From NCBI RefSeq assembly GCF_000010325.1, contig NC_009662.1:1198501-1262500 (forward strand): a stretch of 64,000 nt of DNA, given 5' to 3'. The position numbers and the translations under genes were made by a program. Position 1 is the stretch's first letter. Every line of letters begins with the position of its first letter. The DNA comes from Nitratiruptor sp. SB155-2. GTDB lineage: Bacteria; Campylobacterota; Campylobacteria; Campylobacterales; Nitratiruptoraceae. The notes under the pieces are model-generated. The model was not told the DNA's origin and searched no databases. It saw only the letters and a program-made list of their open reading frames with translations. Of this stretch, positions 1 through 32,592 are shown piece after piece.

Positions 1-1467
1 CGTCGCTTTTTCGAACATTTTTCTTCAAAAATTCAGCAAAAGCTTTGAGCACCATATCCCCTACTTCATGTCCATAACTATCATTGATACGCTTGAAAAA
101 ATCGAGGTCGATCATGACCACACTAAGTGGGTAGTTATATCTTTTCGCTTTTTCAAATTCCGATTCGATAAATTTATCTAAATAGTATCGATTGTACAGC
201 TTTGTCAATCCGTCCGTTATCGCCTTTTGAAAAAGATGAGCCTCTTCTTTTTTAATACGGTAAAATTCCCGCTCTTTTGTGAGCATTATCGAAAAGAGTT
301 TCTGTAGGCTTTCCAAGATCTTGATATCTTCTGTTTCGAGCATCTCAGTAGGATCAAAAAGAATAAAGCATAGTCCTATAGTCTGCTCATTCTCATTTTT
401 TGTCACAAAGCGGTATGCTTTATAGTGTTTACCCAATTGTATAGAATAGATTGAATCGAGCGAGAGCAGTTTTGATCCTTGAGAGGAGTAGTTTTCAAGA
501 TCATGCAAAAACTTTTTCAAGGATACTTTTGTGTCAATCGGAAAAGGGACTGCAGAATCGAAACAGATCACACCTTTTTCGTAATATGAAAAACATACAA
601 TACGCTCAATCGGTAGGATCTGTCTCAACATCTCCAAAATCATACCGATATTGTTGTAGTTGCTTTTAGTGGTAAAACTGACCATTTCAAAAAGTTTCGA
701 CAAGGTCTCATGTGCTTTTGCCAATTTTTGAATATGGCTTCCACCTGGATATTCCAAATAGATCCCCACATCCAAATTTTTGAATTTATTGATCAAATAG
801 TGTATAAACTCTTTTTTGATAATAGAACCATGCTGTGGTGCAATTAGATTCATATCATATTGACTAATTTTATTCATGCCATACTCGACAACCTCTTTGC
901 ACGGCATATAATGCATGTGAAAAAGCTTCATCTTTTCAAAATAGTCTCTAGCATCATGTGCAAAAAGTTCAAACTCCTCACTCAATGCACCAAAAATATC
1001 ACTGGAAAATAGAATCTTTTCTTTGGAATAATAGGTACATATATTGCCGGCAAAATGCATATAAGGAGTAAATATAAATTCTAGTTCTATATCTTTGATT
1101 TTCAATTTCCAATCATTTTGTCCACATCGTAAAACTCGATGCCCCAGTTATAATGCTGTAAAAGCATCTTCGTGTGCCAGTGGGTCACCACGAAACGGCC
1201 TTCAATGCCAATTTCATCCAGCAAATCCTCTACAGATGCGACAATATCTGGATCTTGATGATGAGCCACGATATATTTGATATTTTCAAGAGAGATGATG
1301 GACTCTATTTTCTTTCGGGTCACTTCCCATGTAATTTTGGAGCCTGGATCGATAAGGATCGACTCATCGCCGTTTTCTATCAAGTATACATGACACTGGA
1401 AAGGGTCATTTGGAATGACATAACCAACCCACCAGACTCTTGGAGCGATTTCAATGGGCCTGTCCAT
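1..1467 (-). pseudogene. ODP (di-iron metallo-beta-lactamase fold) sensor fused to GGDEF diguanylate cyclase, frameshifted, 3' end outside window
   Basis: The 5' part (start 1467, stop at 1102) encodes a flavodiiron-like beta-lactamase fold with HHQDPD and THWH. In the next frame, open from about 1117 to base 1, the fold continues (HFAGNICTYY, LFSSDIFGA, PQHGSI). A linker domain follows, then the first half of a GGDEF domain (DGLTKLYNRYYLDKF, VVMIDLDFFKRIND, SYGHEVGD). The window ends just before the GGDEF signature. One extra A in the minus-strand AAAA run at 1116-1119 would restore a single frame (reading DKNDWKLKIKDIE). The visible H-x-D-x-D, H, D and H residues match the ligand set of ODP-type di-iron oxygen sensors, so the likely role is an oxygen- or redox-responsive cyclic-di-GMP synthase. 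It lies 27 bp downstream of the rhodanese gene. I saw no strong ribosome binding site. It could be a real mutation, programmed frameshifting or a sequencing error. Confidence 0.75.
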
Positions 1468-27653: not shown

Positions 27654-29006
27654 TTATTCATTCTTTTGTAATTGTTTTACTATCCAGTTGGTATTGATAA
27701 TATTGAAAACCTCATCATGATAGTCAACAGTTCCTTTGATAAAATGATCTTTTTGAGATAAAACGATATAAACATCATCTTTTGGTACTTGAATAATCTC
27801 GTCAATATTGCCTATAAGCAATGCAAAGTCAAACAGTTTTCCATCCAAATCTGTTTGTATTATAAGAATCAATCGTTCCCCTTTTTGAATTTCCCCTTTT
27901 TCACTTGCCAAATATTCTAAGTCAAAAAGAAGATAACTTCTTGAATCTATAGCAACAATTCCTTCAATGCCCTCTTTATGTTCTAAAGATCTTGTAATGT
28001 GAACATCCTGCTCTTCATGGATACCCTTTATATATTCCATTTTTATAGCAAAACGATCTCCATCCACTCTAACAATTAAAAACTCTTCATATTCAGTTGT
28101 TCCCCTTGAAACTTCATCCTTATTATTTGATGTAATGCCATATTCTTCAATAAGTTTTTCCAAGTATTTATTGTCAATAATAGAAATAATTTGGTTGTGA
28201 TAGATAAAGAAACGATTTAGAATCTCCTCACCCCTTGCAATATTGATATGTTCTGTTTGTATATTAACAATATTAAGAATTTTTCCAACTGATAATCCCA
28301 GGTGAAGATTCTCTTTTTTTAAGATAAAAATATTTTCACCTAGTTGTTTATCAACATGTAACAGTTTTCCTAAATTGACAATGTGCAATAATCTATTTTT
28401 AACTAAATAAACTCCTTCAATAAACTCCTCTTTTGGAATATAAACCCCTTTTTTTGCATCCTCAAAGACTTCAACAAATTGTACGATAGAAGCATCAATG
28501 GCAAATATCTCTTTCCCAAGTTTAAATAGAATCAAACTTATCTCATCTTGTGTTGTTTCAACTACACTTTGTAAAAGTTTGTCTTTTTGTTTTTGAAATG
28601 TTGGTTTAATAGTTGGAACATCTACATTACTATAAAAAAAATCCTCTTTTAAAATTTCCACGACTTCTTCATCTAGATTGATTACCTCGATTTTGTCATT
28701 ATTATATTTAATATGCTCAATCTCTTCTATCTTATGTATTTCATCTATAAGAATCGCAAAGTCTTTATCTTTAATGCTCAAGATAATAGCACTTTTATTC
28801 TTTATATCGCCACATTCCCCAAGTTTCAAAATTTTTTTGAGACAAACTAAAAAATAGATATCACCATTTTGTTTAATTTCTCCTACTATATACTCGGGCA
28901 TAAATTCTACATCATACACTTTTTCTACATCAACTATCCATTTTACATTGTCTACATTGACACCAAATATAGAATCGTTAACTTTAAATGTACATACCGA
29001 AACCAT
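27654..29006 (-). CDS. Protein of three tandem CheW-like domains
   Basis: The 450-residue protein has no membrane segment. It reads as three CheW-like folds: about 1-125 (VCTFKVNDSIFGVNVDNVKW, YFLVCLKKILKL), 155-290 (ILFKLGKEIFAIDASIVQFV, LLHIVNLGKLL) and 306-448 (FLIVRVDGDRFAIKMEYIKG, YLLFDLEYLA). CheW couples chemoreceptors to the kinase CheA. The usual consensus in the third strand is weak in all three copies, so partner specificity probably differs. Its ATG overlaps the stop of the double-MCP gene as TAATG, so the two products are likely made together. Lys/Ile/Glu-rich AT-biased codons set it apart from neighbouring genes. No CheA, CheR or CheB is in the window. Confidence 0.85.
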   Translation of the reverse strand: MVSVCTFKVNDSIFGVNVDNVKWIVDVEKVYDVEFMPEYIVGEIKQNGDIYFLVCLKKILKLGECGDIKNKSAIILSIKDKDFAILIDEIHKIEEIEHIKYNNDKIEVINLDEEVVEILKEDFFYSNVDVPTIKPTFQKQKDKLLQSVVETTQDEISLILFKLGKEIFAIDASIVQFVEVFEDAKKGVYIPKEEFIEGVYLVKNRLLHIVNLGKLLHVDKQLGENIFILKKENLHLGLSVGKILNIVNIQTEHINIARGEEILNRFFIYHNQIISIIDNKYLEKLIEEYGITSNNKDEVSRGTTEYEEFLIVRVDGDRFAIKMEYIKGIHEEQDVHITRSLEHKEGIEGIVAIDSRSYLLFDLEYLASEKGEIQKGERLILIIQTDLDGKLFDFALLIGNIDEIIQVPKDDVYIVLSQKDHFIKGTVDYHDEVFNIINTNWIVKQLQKNE

Positions 29007-30886
29007 TACTCTTCTCCAGACAATACTGATGCAATCTCAAAAAGTTTTGCAGAGAGCTCTTTCATATCCCGACTAATCTTTAAGATAATATTTGCCGCTT
29101 CTCTCGACTCTGAAGCATTTTTGTGAGAAATATTTGCCGCTTCTAAAATCTGTTCTGCAGCAATTTTACTCTGTTCGAGAGCTTGAAAAATATGTTCAAC
29201 TCGTGTCACACCTTTTTCCACAGCTTCTAAAACTTTGATGAGGTTCTCTTTATTATTAGCAAGCTCATACTCTATACGATCTAGTTTCTCATTTTCTGCT
29301 CGCTGAGTCAAAATGATATTATTGACTAACACATTGATTTGATCATTCTCCTCTTTTACTTTATTAATTGTCTTGATAACTTTATCTAGATTCTCTTCTG
29401 AACTATTCGCAAGCTCTTTTATATCGCGGCTAACTTCACTAAAACCATTGCCAAATTCACCTGCTCGTATCGCCTCTACCGAACCATTGATAGAAAGGGC
29501 AGAAATTTGAACAATGGAGAGCTCAATTTTACGAATCATATCGTTAAGTGCATTGATTTTTGAATTAATAAAATCGAGAGCTGGTATTACATCTTCAGAT
29601 GATTTGGTATTCTCTAATGCCATAGATTTTATTTTTTTAAGATCTTGTATAACACCTTCAAATATTTGATCGATTTTTTTGATGTTTTCAAAAAGTTCAT
29701 GTAACAAATCTTTTGCACGGGCTGCTTCTTGCAACGTTTGATGTGCCACTTGTTCCGCTTTTTTAGCATCTTCTTTAGCAATATTGGCTGCCTCTTCTAT
29801 CTGTTCTAAAGCTTCAACAGTCTGTTCCATCGAACGTTCAATCTCCTCATTGGTACTTGTGAGCTCTTCTGAAGCAGAAGCCAACTCATCCACAACAGCT
29901 TTTTTATCGTTTCCTTCCAACTTATCGACAAGATTCTTGATCATTTTCGCTGCAACTTCTGCTTGTGCAAAGGCTTCAACCTGCTGTGAGATTGTATTAG
30001 TGATCTCACTGACTGCACTAGCACTCTCTTCAGCAGCACTAGCAATAATTTCCGCACTTCTATGTAGAGCATTTACCTCTTTTGCCGTTCGTTTCACTGC
30101 ATCCACAACAGTTAATGTCAGTTTGTTTGATTCTTGAATTAGATTCATGATATAGTGCATATTATTTGAGCTGTCAAGAGCAATTTTTTCCGCTTCCTGC
30201 ATCGAAGTATGGAGTTTATTCATCACATCTTTTGCTACGCCAATCTTTTCTTGCGTTATTTGAACAATATCTTTAATGTTAACAACGTATCTATTGGATT
30301 TTGATGCAATCTGACGGATTTCAGAAGCCATAATGGTGAAGCTTTTTCCTTTTTCTTTTGCCCTTGCAGCTTCTATCGCTGCATTAAGAGCTAACAAAGA
30401 GGTTTTTTTCGCAAGTTTTGTAATCAAGTTAACTGCATTATCTATCTCTTTAGATGAATCATATAATATATTTGCTTTATTGGCTATCTCTTCAGCTAAA
30501 CCTGCCGTAACACGCATTTTTTCTTTATCTTCCAATATACTTTGATTTGCACCCTTTATGAGTTCCATAAATTTTTCAGAAATATCTAAAATAAGATTGC
30601 TATCATTTTCTAATATTTGTGCGTTTTTATTAATCTCATCTATTGCACTTAGACTCTCCTCAGCCGCCCCTGCATTCTCTTCTGCTGCTGCGGCAATTTG
30701 TTCCATCGTCCCTTTTATCTCTTCGATAGCTGCTAAACCATCTGCAGTTCTCTCATTTAGTTTTTGTGCTATCTCTTCAATACTTGCAGTATTCAGATCC
30801 AAATCTAAACCATGCTTATCACTTTTTTGAGTATTTTTCTCTTCAACAGACATCTGTTTGTCTAAGTGTTTTTTGATAAAACCCAT
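29006..30886 (-). CDS. Soluble protein with two tandem MCP signalling hairpins
   Basis: The 626-residue protein lacks signal peptide, membrane helices and any recognisable sensor or HAMP domain. It is almost wholly coiled coil. Two receptor tips are visible. Tip 1, about residues 160-198, reads TSLLALNAAIEAARAKEKGK then FTIMASEIRQIASKSN. Tip 2, about 459-497, is degenerate but clear: ISALSINGSVEAIRAGEFGN then GFSEVSRDIKELANSS. Matching coiled-coil arms flank each tip (61-85 with 279-302; 334-370 with 564-605). Tips of this kind bind CheW and CheA. The gene has a strong AAAGGAG and lies 18 bp after the PAS-GGDEF-EAL gene, coupled to the triple-CheW gene. How it senses anything is unknown. A scaffold or cytoplasmic signalling role is inferred. 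Confidence 0.88.
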   Translation of the reverse strand: MGFIKKHLDKQMSVEEKNTQKSDKHGLDLDLNTASIEEIAQKLNERTADGLAAIEEIKGTMEQIAAAAEENAGAAEESLSAIDEINKNAQILENDSNLILDISEKFMELIKGANQSILEDKEKMRVTAGLAEEIANKANILYDSSKEIDNAVNLITKLAKKTSLLALNAAIEAARAKEKGKSFTIMASEIRQIASKSNRYVVNIKDIVQITQEKIGVAKDVMNKLHTSMQEAEKIALDSSNNMHYIMNLIQESNKLTLTVVDAVKRTAKEVNALHRSAEIIASAAEESASAVSEITNTISQQVEAFAQAEVAAKMIKNLVDKLEGNDKKAVVDELASASEELTSTNEEIERSMEQTVEALEQIEEAANIAKEDAKKAEQVAHQTLQEAARAKDLLHELFENIKKIDQIFEGVIQDLKKIKSMALENTKSSEDVIPALDFINSKINALNDMIRKIELSIVQISALSINGSVEAIRAGEFGNGFSEVSRDIKELANSSEENLDKVIKTINKVKEENDQINVLVNNIILTQRAENEKLDRIEYELANNKENLIKVLEAVEKGVTRVEHIFQALEQSKIAAEQILEAANISHKNASESREAANIILKISRDMKELSAKLFEIASVLSGEE

Positions 30887-30904: not shown

Positions 30905-32592
30905 TTAATGTATTTCAGGCCGTCCAAAATAGAATCCTTGAAAAATGTCTACTCCAATTTCTTCAAGAATTTGCAACTGCTCTCTTGTCTCAACGCCTTC
31001 TGCAACAACTTTTAAATCAAAAATGTGACCAATTTTTGTTATTGCTTCAACTATTGCATAATCATTAGAATTATCGACAACATTTTTTACAAATATTTTA
31101 TCGATCTTAAGTTCAGCCAATGGTAATGTTTTCAAATACTCAAAGGAAGAAAAACCTGTACCAAAATCATCGATACTAAACGAAATACCGATATTTTTCA
31201 ATTGTTTTATTTTGCTAATAGCTTCATCTATATTTTCCAGCAATATATTTTCTGTTATTTCAAAGATGAGATTATTAGGATTTATGTTATATTTATTTAT
31301 TATGTTTATAACTCTTTTAACAAATAAATCATCTTCAAACTGTTTAGGACTAATATTGACAGAAATTTTTTCATTATATTTTTGAAGATACGAACAGACT
31401 TTCTGTAATATATATGAACCAATTTCTATGATCAAACCATTCTCTTCGGCTATAGGAATGAATTTATCTGGAGGAATAATCTGTCCATTTAGTTCCCATC
31501 GAACAAGAGCCTCATATCCTACAACAACAGGAGTTTGATTTTCTAATCGCACCTTTTTTTGAAAAGCTAAAAAGAACTGATCGTTTTTAAGCCCCTCTTT
31601 GATTTTTTCTTTTATTTTGCTTTTTTCTTTCAATGTTTTAAAATATTTGGAATTAAAAAAAATAATACGACTTTTTCGATTCTCTTTGGCATTATATAAT
31701 GCAATATCTGCTTGTCGCAACAATAATGCAATATCCAAATTTGGTTCAATCAGTGCAATGCCAATACTAATTGTGATATTAATTTCTTGATCATCAATCA
31801 CATACAGTTTTTCCAACTCTTTTTTTAATCGCCCAGCGAAACTAGAACTAAAAATGCGGACTTTTTCTCTATCTTTTTCTTTTAAATCACAAAAAAGAAG
31901 AAATTCATCACCTCCGACTCTTGCTATCAAAGACTCTTTTCGAACAGTAGTTTTTAGTCTCTTGGCAATCTCTTTTAAAAGAAGATCTCCCACTTCATAT
32001 CCACGAATCTCATTGATCTCTCTAAAATTATCAATATCAATAAAAAAAAGTGCACCATATAAAGAATGGGTTGAATAATAAGGAAAGACTTCTTGAATAA
32101 ATTCCAAAAAATACTTTCTATTATAAAGACCTGTTAAAAAATCATAATTGGATAGAAAATCGATCATTTTATCTTTTTCAACAATTTCAGAAATATCGAA
32201 AATGGCAACCATGCGTAAAGGTGTATCCCAAAGCTGAATACTTGTACCTTTAACCAAAATCCAAGCACTTGTACCATCTCTTTTTTTAACCTTTACTTTG
32301 TAGGGTTTTTTATATTTTTTTTTATATTATTTTGAACAGTTTTTTTACAATTTGCAGCAACAAAATCATAGATACTTTTACCAACAAGCTCTTTTTTACT
32401 ATATCCCACTATATTAGCGGCACTGCTATTGGCATATAAAATCATTCCACCGATTTCTATGAAAATAATTCCTTCGAATATATTTTCGAAGAAATTGGCG
32501 ATATACTCTTGAAGTTGCTGATCGATAGTTTGCAACGTATTCAAATCCTTAAATAAAATATTTTCATTCATAAACATAAATGAAAAAATCAT
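30905..32592 (-). pseudogene. PAS-GGDEF-EAL cyclic-di-GMP enzyme, frameshifted in the PAS domain
   Basis: The first frame (32592 to stop 32293) carries an N-terminal helix and half a PAS domain (NIFEGIIFIEIGGMILYANS, IVGYSKKELVGKSIYDF). One extra A in the six-A run at 32306-32311 continues into KPYKVKVKKRDGTSAWILVK and the rest of the PAS, giving 562 residues. GGDEF follows (LYNRKYFLEF, IARVGGDEFLLF), without the RxxD inhibitory site. The EAL domain is complete (GYEALVRW, NISPKQFED, FEITENIL, DDFGTGFSSFEYLK, VVAEGVET, QGFYFGRP). Both catalytic motifs look active, so the restored protein could make and degrade cyclic-di-GMP. It is first in the AT-rich signalling operon. Confidence 0.82.

Follow-up and report, generated by a model that had tools for sequence, protein, structure and literature searches.

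A probable second, reduced DosM scaffold receptor with its own triple-CheW partner in Nitratiruptor sp. SB155-2

Genes at the locus

The stretch of DNA analyzed here, referred to as the window, comprises 64,000 nucleotides of Nitratiruptor sp. SB155-2 (contig NC_009662.1, positions 1,198,501 to 1,262,500). On its minus strand lie a gene for a soluble protein with two tandem methyl-accepting chemotaxis protein (MCP) signalling hairpins, which we call dosM-B, and a gene for a protein with three CheW domains, cheW3-B (Table 1). The dosM-B frame opens with ATG, and cheW3-B follows downstream, its start overlapping the dosM-B stop by one base. In genome G001 dosM-B is found in the same place with the same flanking genes. 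Unlike the locus of its paralogue, DosM-A, the dosM-B locus has neither cheB nor cheR beside it.

A gene for cyclic di-GMP metabolism lies directly upstream. A DNA alignment with G001 placed a 1-base frameshift between its PAS and GGDEF-EAL parts, in an A-rich run at about positions 32315-32325, and this may be a real break, a slippage site or an assembly error. In G001 and G020 the same PAS-GGDEF-EAL gene lies directly upstream of dosM-B as one unbroken frame; it was not found upstream of dosM-B in G002 and G019, which complete the five-member clade. The GGDEF-EAL part still has a dN/dS of 0.086. That this gene belongs to the dosM-B unit and ties it to cyclic di-GMP is a guess from gene order.

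Table 1. Features of the dosM-B locus, in window coordinates
Feature	Position	Strand	Basis
dosM-B, 626-aa soluble tandem MCP	29006..30886	-	ORF; two MCPsignal matches; DosM family alignment
Hairpin 1, residues 27-323	29918..30808	-	AlphaFold helices 27-175 and 177-323; ungapped 2ch7 profile match over 130-325
Tip 1, residues 156-200, canonical LLALNAAIEAAR	30287..30421	-	Alignment of homologues
Inter-hairpin linker, residues 324-327	29906..29917	-	Helix break in AlphaFold model; tip-to-tip gaps fall there or adjacent
Hairpin 2, residues 328-623	29018..29905	-	Residues 324-626 superpose on 2ch7_B; 44.5 bits MCPsignal alone
Tip 2, residues 455-499, family-specific SINGSVEAIRAGE	29390..29524	-	Homologue alignment; dN/dS
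cheW3-B, 450 aa, three CheW domains	27654..29006	-	Pfam CheW, 3 stretches; paralogue comparison
CheW domain 1 of cheW3-B	28716..28997	-	Pfam CheW
CheW domain 2 of cheW3-B	28173..28535	-	Pfam CheW
CheW domain 3 of cheW3-B	27675..28085	-	Pfam CheW
GGDEF-EAL part of upstream c-di-GMP gene	30905..32257	-	Pfam; 18 bases upstream of dosM-B
PAS part of upstream c-di-GMP gene	32293..32592	-	Pfam PAS; DNA alignment with G001

Domain architecture of DosM-B

A preliminary description of this DNA had read the dosM-B frame as a protein of 626 residues holding two tandem receptor hairpins, with no membrane segment or input domain, and the profile searches and structure prediction bear out this reading. The whole protein gives two Pfam MCPsignal matches. 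When the profile was run on each half alone, residues 1-327 scored 78.2 bits and residues 328-626 scored 44.5 bits, both above the Pfam gathering cut-off of 34.6 bits. A genome-wide scan found two separate MCPsignal regions above the cut-off only in DosM-B and its paralogue. The highest Kyte-Doolittle mean over 19 residues is 1.05, which indicates no membrane segment, no sensor or other domain rises above the Pfam cut-off, and NCBIfam at its own cut-off assigns the protein to no named family.

The AlphaFold model of DosM-B (pLDDT 86.8, pTM 0.63) consists of helices at residues 27-175, 177-323 and 328-623. As in the model of a DosM from the genus Vibrio (pLDDT 87.6, pTM 0.62), the two hairpins are separated by a short break at which the helices stop and restart. 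The second half, residues 324-626, superposes on the entire hairpin of 2ch7_B, a solved soluble MCP, over 303 residues with an rmsd of 3.5. An ordinary MCP chemoreceptor is ruled out by the presence of two hairpins, and the alternative of one single long hairpin is ruled out by the two Pfam matches together with the full hairpin match of the second half alone. The arms measure 20.6-21.6 heptads in the AlphaFold model, near the 22 per arm of the 44-heptad class, an estimate made without a class-specific model. Resemblance to pore-forming toxins, TTYH channels and SMC proteins among the Foldseek and VIA rows reflects long helices and not kinship. A sequence search of solved structures found no double-hairpin MCP.

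Conservation and spacing of the two tips

The key residues of the tips are N168/E172/R175/E178 in tip 1 and N467/E471/R474/E477 in tip 2, in keeping with the tip cores that had been placed at about residues 160-198 and 459-497. Tip 1 is canonical across 26 homologues. In the same 26 sequences the residues that never vary in tip 2 are I454, Q460, G468, E471, G479, G481, F482, V485, D488, I489 and L492. In Tsr numbering, these 26 tips carry G at the usual A382, E at E385 and D in place of E402, and nearly always R at the R388 position. The form seen in the window, SINGSVEAIRAGE, is the normal one within its clade.

In the comparison of the two closest species, tip 1 has a dN of 0 and a dS of 1.4, and tip 2 a dN of 0.009 and a dS of 0.75. 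By these sequence comparisons both tips are under purifying selection, which is strong at tip 2. The second tip had earlier been called degenerate with its E and R positions kept; those positions are indeed kept, as is the N, whereas the invariant residues and the low dN mark the tip as divergent, conserved and family-specific rather than degenerate.

The spacing from the N of one tip to the N of the other is exactly 300 residues in 17 of the 26 homologues, 293-299 in the other nine, and 299 in DosM-B. Three Vibrio-genus proteins, whose genomes are not necessarily V. cholerae, also have a spacing of 300. In the family alignment most of the length variation between the tips falls in the linker region or next to it. 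In three genomes DosM-A (L009:7050-8942) is missing four residues directly ahead of LIALNAAIEAS, a loss that the other arm does not mirror, so the helix register at tip 1 of those proteins should shift.

Distribution of DosM

DosM was found in 16 of 397 genomes sampled from the phylum of the window and in 6 of 22 genomes of its family, with both copies in only two. None of four genomes reached by way of other loci contained a DosM, and no full-length relative was found on the plasmids searched. In the tree, sequences from the family of the window and from family f16 form one group, and DosM-A and DosM-B form separate clades; branches are long and the deeper joins unsure. A gene with a CheW domain adjoins DosM in every Campylobacterota neighbourhood examined, and many of the other DosM genes sit in full clusters with cheB, cheR, cheY and cheA.

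A profile built without Vibrio members recovered full-length DosM in 3 of 148 Vibrio-genus genomes (E about 1e-150, positions 1-631 of 633), together with a fourth match covering only residues 32-302 of the profile. A contig scan with the family alignment returned mostly ordinary MCPs because its pattern was the common ALNAAIEA, and only four of its rows (L039-L042) were accepted as DosM and carried forward.

Identity and proposed role

DosM, with tandem double signalling domains, and CheW3, a concatenated triple CheW, are the signature of the F9 class of chemosensory systems (PMC9321776). The pairing is a known one, though the preliminary description had not recognized it, and has been described in V. 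cholerae and explicitly in Nitratiruptor (PMC7534058, PMC9321776); the latter genus is reported to carry a partial F9 set (dosM, cheW3 and cheBR) together with a complete F14 class and a single cheA (PMC9321776). DosM-B is probably a DosM, that is, a double-signalling-domain scaffold receptor of the F9 class, present here as a second, reduced copy with its own CheW3. A full F9 system has its own CheA and CheY clustered with dosM and cheW3. In this genome the sole CheA belongs to another cluster, so the genes are classed as a partial F9 set, which is a subclass already in the literature (PMC9321776), and not as full F9.

A scaffold role is most likely for DosM in this organism, by analogy with the family. 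Its tips would dock into baseplates of CheW3 and CheA, and the protein would tie two opposed receptor layers together, stabilizing an array free of the membrane. Since DosM has no input domain, signals would enter through other cytoplasmic receptors or sensors. Output would run through the single CheA of the flagellar cluster. Neither DosM copy has an F9 CheA or CheY beside it, so the array in this organism stays a proposal.

Packing of the hairpins and the length of the array

The solved Tsr hairpin (303 residues) aligns to positions 32..606 of the DosM-B model with an rmsd of 5.2, and to positions 46..620 of the Vibrio-genus model with an rmsd of 3.4. The match thus runs from the first helix to the last in both models, which suggests that the hairpins of a DosM monomer pack side by side with their tips at one end; this packing is deduced from the aligned ranges alone, on models of lone chains. 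According to reviews, the F9 arrays of V. cholerae consist of two baseplates of CheA and triple CheW set 35 nm apart, DosM appears to be essential for them, and cryo-tomography shows it in every other trimer as an elongated rod that carries one signalling domain at either end (PMC7534058, PMC7184735). A straight rod of 299 residues at 0.148-0.150 nm each would be 44-45 nm long. Against a baseplate spacing of 35 nm, either the reading of the rod, the overlap or the fold needs revision. The disagreement of predicted packing and rod length with the rod seen by tomography is the one interesting conflict.

One way out, which the preliminary description had raised in part and which we hold tentatively, is that DosM is a closed, single-chain counterpart of a receptor dimer, with both hairpins in one four-helix bundle, both tips at the same end, and one DosM replacing one receptor dimer in a trimer. 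Such a molecule would present one canonical and one specialized tip, and the two layers would join by overlapping at their far ends; it would be another fold for the DosM family, not another family. The range of the Tsr alignment spans both hairpins in both models, as if helix 1 were antiparallel to the last helix, and the linker is only a short helix break in each. Two layers of 22 nm with an overlap of about 9 nm would give 35 nm, much as layers overlap in the 31-nm sandwich of Tar fragments (PMC3964821), and natural soluble single-chain MCPs have been interpreted in the same way (PMC4692393). AlphaFold, however, tends to meet dimer contacts within a lone chain, the pTM values are only 0.62-0.63, and by published tomography the V. 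cholerae protein is a rod with one tip per end (PMC7534058).

A domain-swapped antiparallel rod would reconcile the contacts of the models with the rod of the tomograms (PMC7534058), though we consider it doubtful. Two chains would open up at their linkers and exchange hairpins; either end would then pair the first hairpin of one chain with the second hairpin of its partner, and the contacts between hairpins would be kept while the pair spanned two baseplates. Subunit swapping has been observed in engineered single-chain Tsr (PMC4692393), but the expected length of about 44 nm does not agree with the measured 35 nm. A broader proposal, speculative and on balance unlikely, is that DosM is a built-in receptor heterodimer, whether as a closed bundle or a swapped rod. 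Its canonical and specialized tips would be forced to pair, and the axis and periphery roles of a trimer would be split between the two hairpins; in this lineage one such scaffold would share an operon with a cyclic di-GMP enzyme and depend on the flagellar CheA.

Two DosM/CheW3 pairs and one CheA

The genome holds two DosM/CheW3 pairs and one CheA, the latter in the flagellar cluster. The other pair lies at about 268-271 kb, beside cheB and cheR. DosM-A and DosM-B are 42-44% identical, and CheW3-A and CheW3-B 28%. The same pair of species gives dS values of 0.15-0.26 for dosM-A and cheW3-A (L009 against L137) and 1.3-1.9 for the dosM-B operon (the window against L136), where most neighbouring genes fall at about 0.3-1.1. 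The contrast may be due either to a recent exchange or conversion event at one of the loci or to rapid change at the other.

That DosM-B and CheW3-B are the non-working leftovers of a decaying duplicate without CheA, CheB or CheR of its own is very improbable: the absent cheB and cheR, the frameshifted upstream gene and a dS above that of the neighbours would fit decay, but both frames are open with a dN/dS of 0.06 each, tip 1 is unchanged at the amino-acid level and tip 2 nearly so, and the pair is present in related species.

Two further genes were observed. A 180-aa gene between cheB and cheR of the DosM-A locus (L009:4390-4932, plus strand) has no Pfam match, and its homologues occur in the partial F9 sets of G001, G003, G019 and G075. 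At about 599-600.6 kb of the genome (L010:7149-8579, minus strand), adjoining the cluster in which the sole cheA of the genome is found, is a gene whose 476-aa product combines a PAS domain with an apparent pair of short MCP-like tips, LSLNASIESYK and FIHINGMIESAH. The tips are about 140 residues apart and nearly invariant in 20 genomes, and the second scores weakly at 8.2 bits. This protein could be a shorter, sensor-bearing double-tip receptor.

DosM-B and CheW3-B provide a rare partial F9 system with a second DosM/CheW3 pair, one that lacks cheB and cheR. Because the two tips keep a conserved signature and stand about 300 residues apart with little variation in several phyla, the placement of DosM in the array can be tested directly. 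Being soluble and free of the membrane, and having a triple adaptor to match, the scaffold would also lend itself to the assembly of arrays in vitro.

Comparison with known systems

The DosM of V. cholerae (VC1403; cluster I, or F9) is likewise soluble, with tandem MCP domains and no sensor, and its gene is clustered with one for a triple CheW. Vibrio-genus DosM and DosM-B have tip spacings of 300 and 299, but their overall identity is only about 22%. The locus described here differs from the V. cholerae cluster in having no F9 CheA or CheY, in the presence of two DosM copies in the genome, and in the cyclic di-GMP gene upstream. A further known system is the partial F9 set of Nitratiruptor and Nautilia (PMC9321776), which the DosM-A locus at about 269,000 matches exactly, with dosM, cheW3, cheB and cheR together and one cheA elsewhere; DosM-B differs from that set in having no cheB or cheR. 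The soluble MCP of Thermotoga maritima (2ch7) matches hairpin 1 by an ungapped profile and hairpin 2 by fold, but has one hairpin per chain. Two receptor subunits are fused in one chain in engineered Tsr~Tsr and in a soluble tandem Tar (PMC4692393), as in DosM. Those constructs are man-made and symmetric, and Tsr~Tsr is bound to the membrane, whereas DosM joins one canonical tip to one that is specific to its family.
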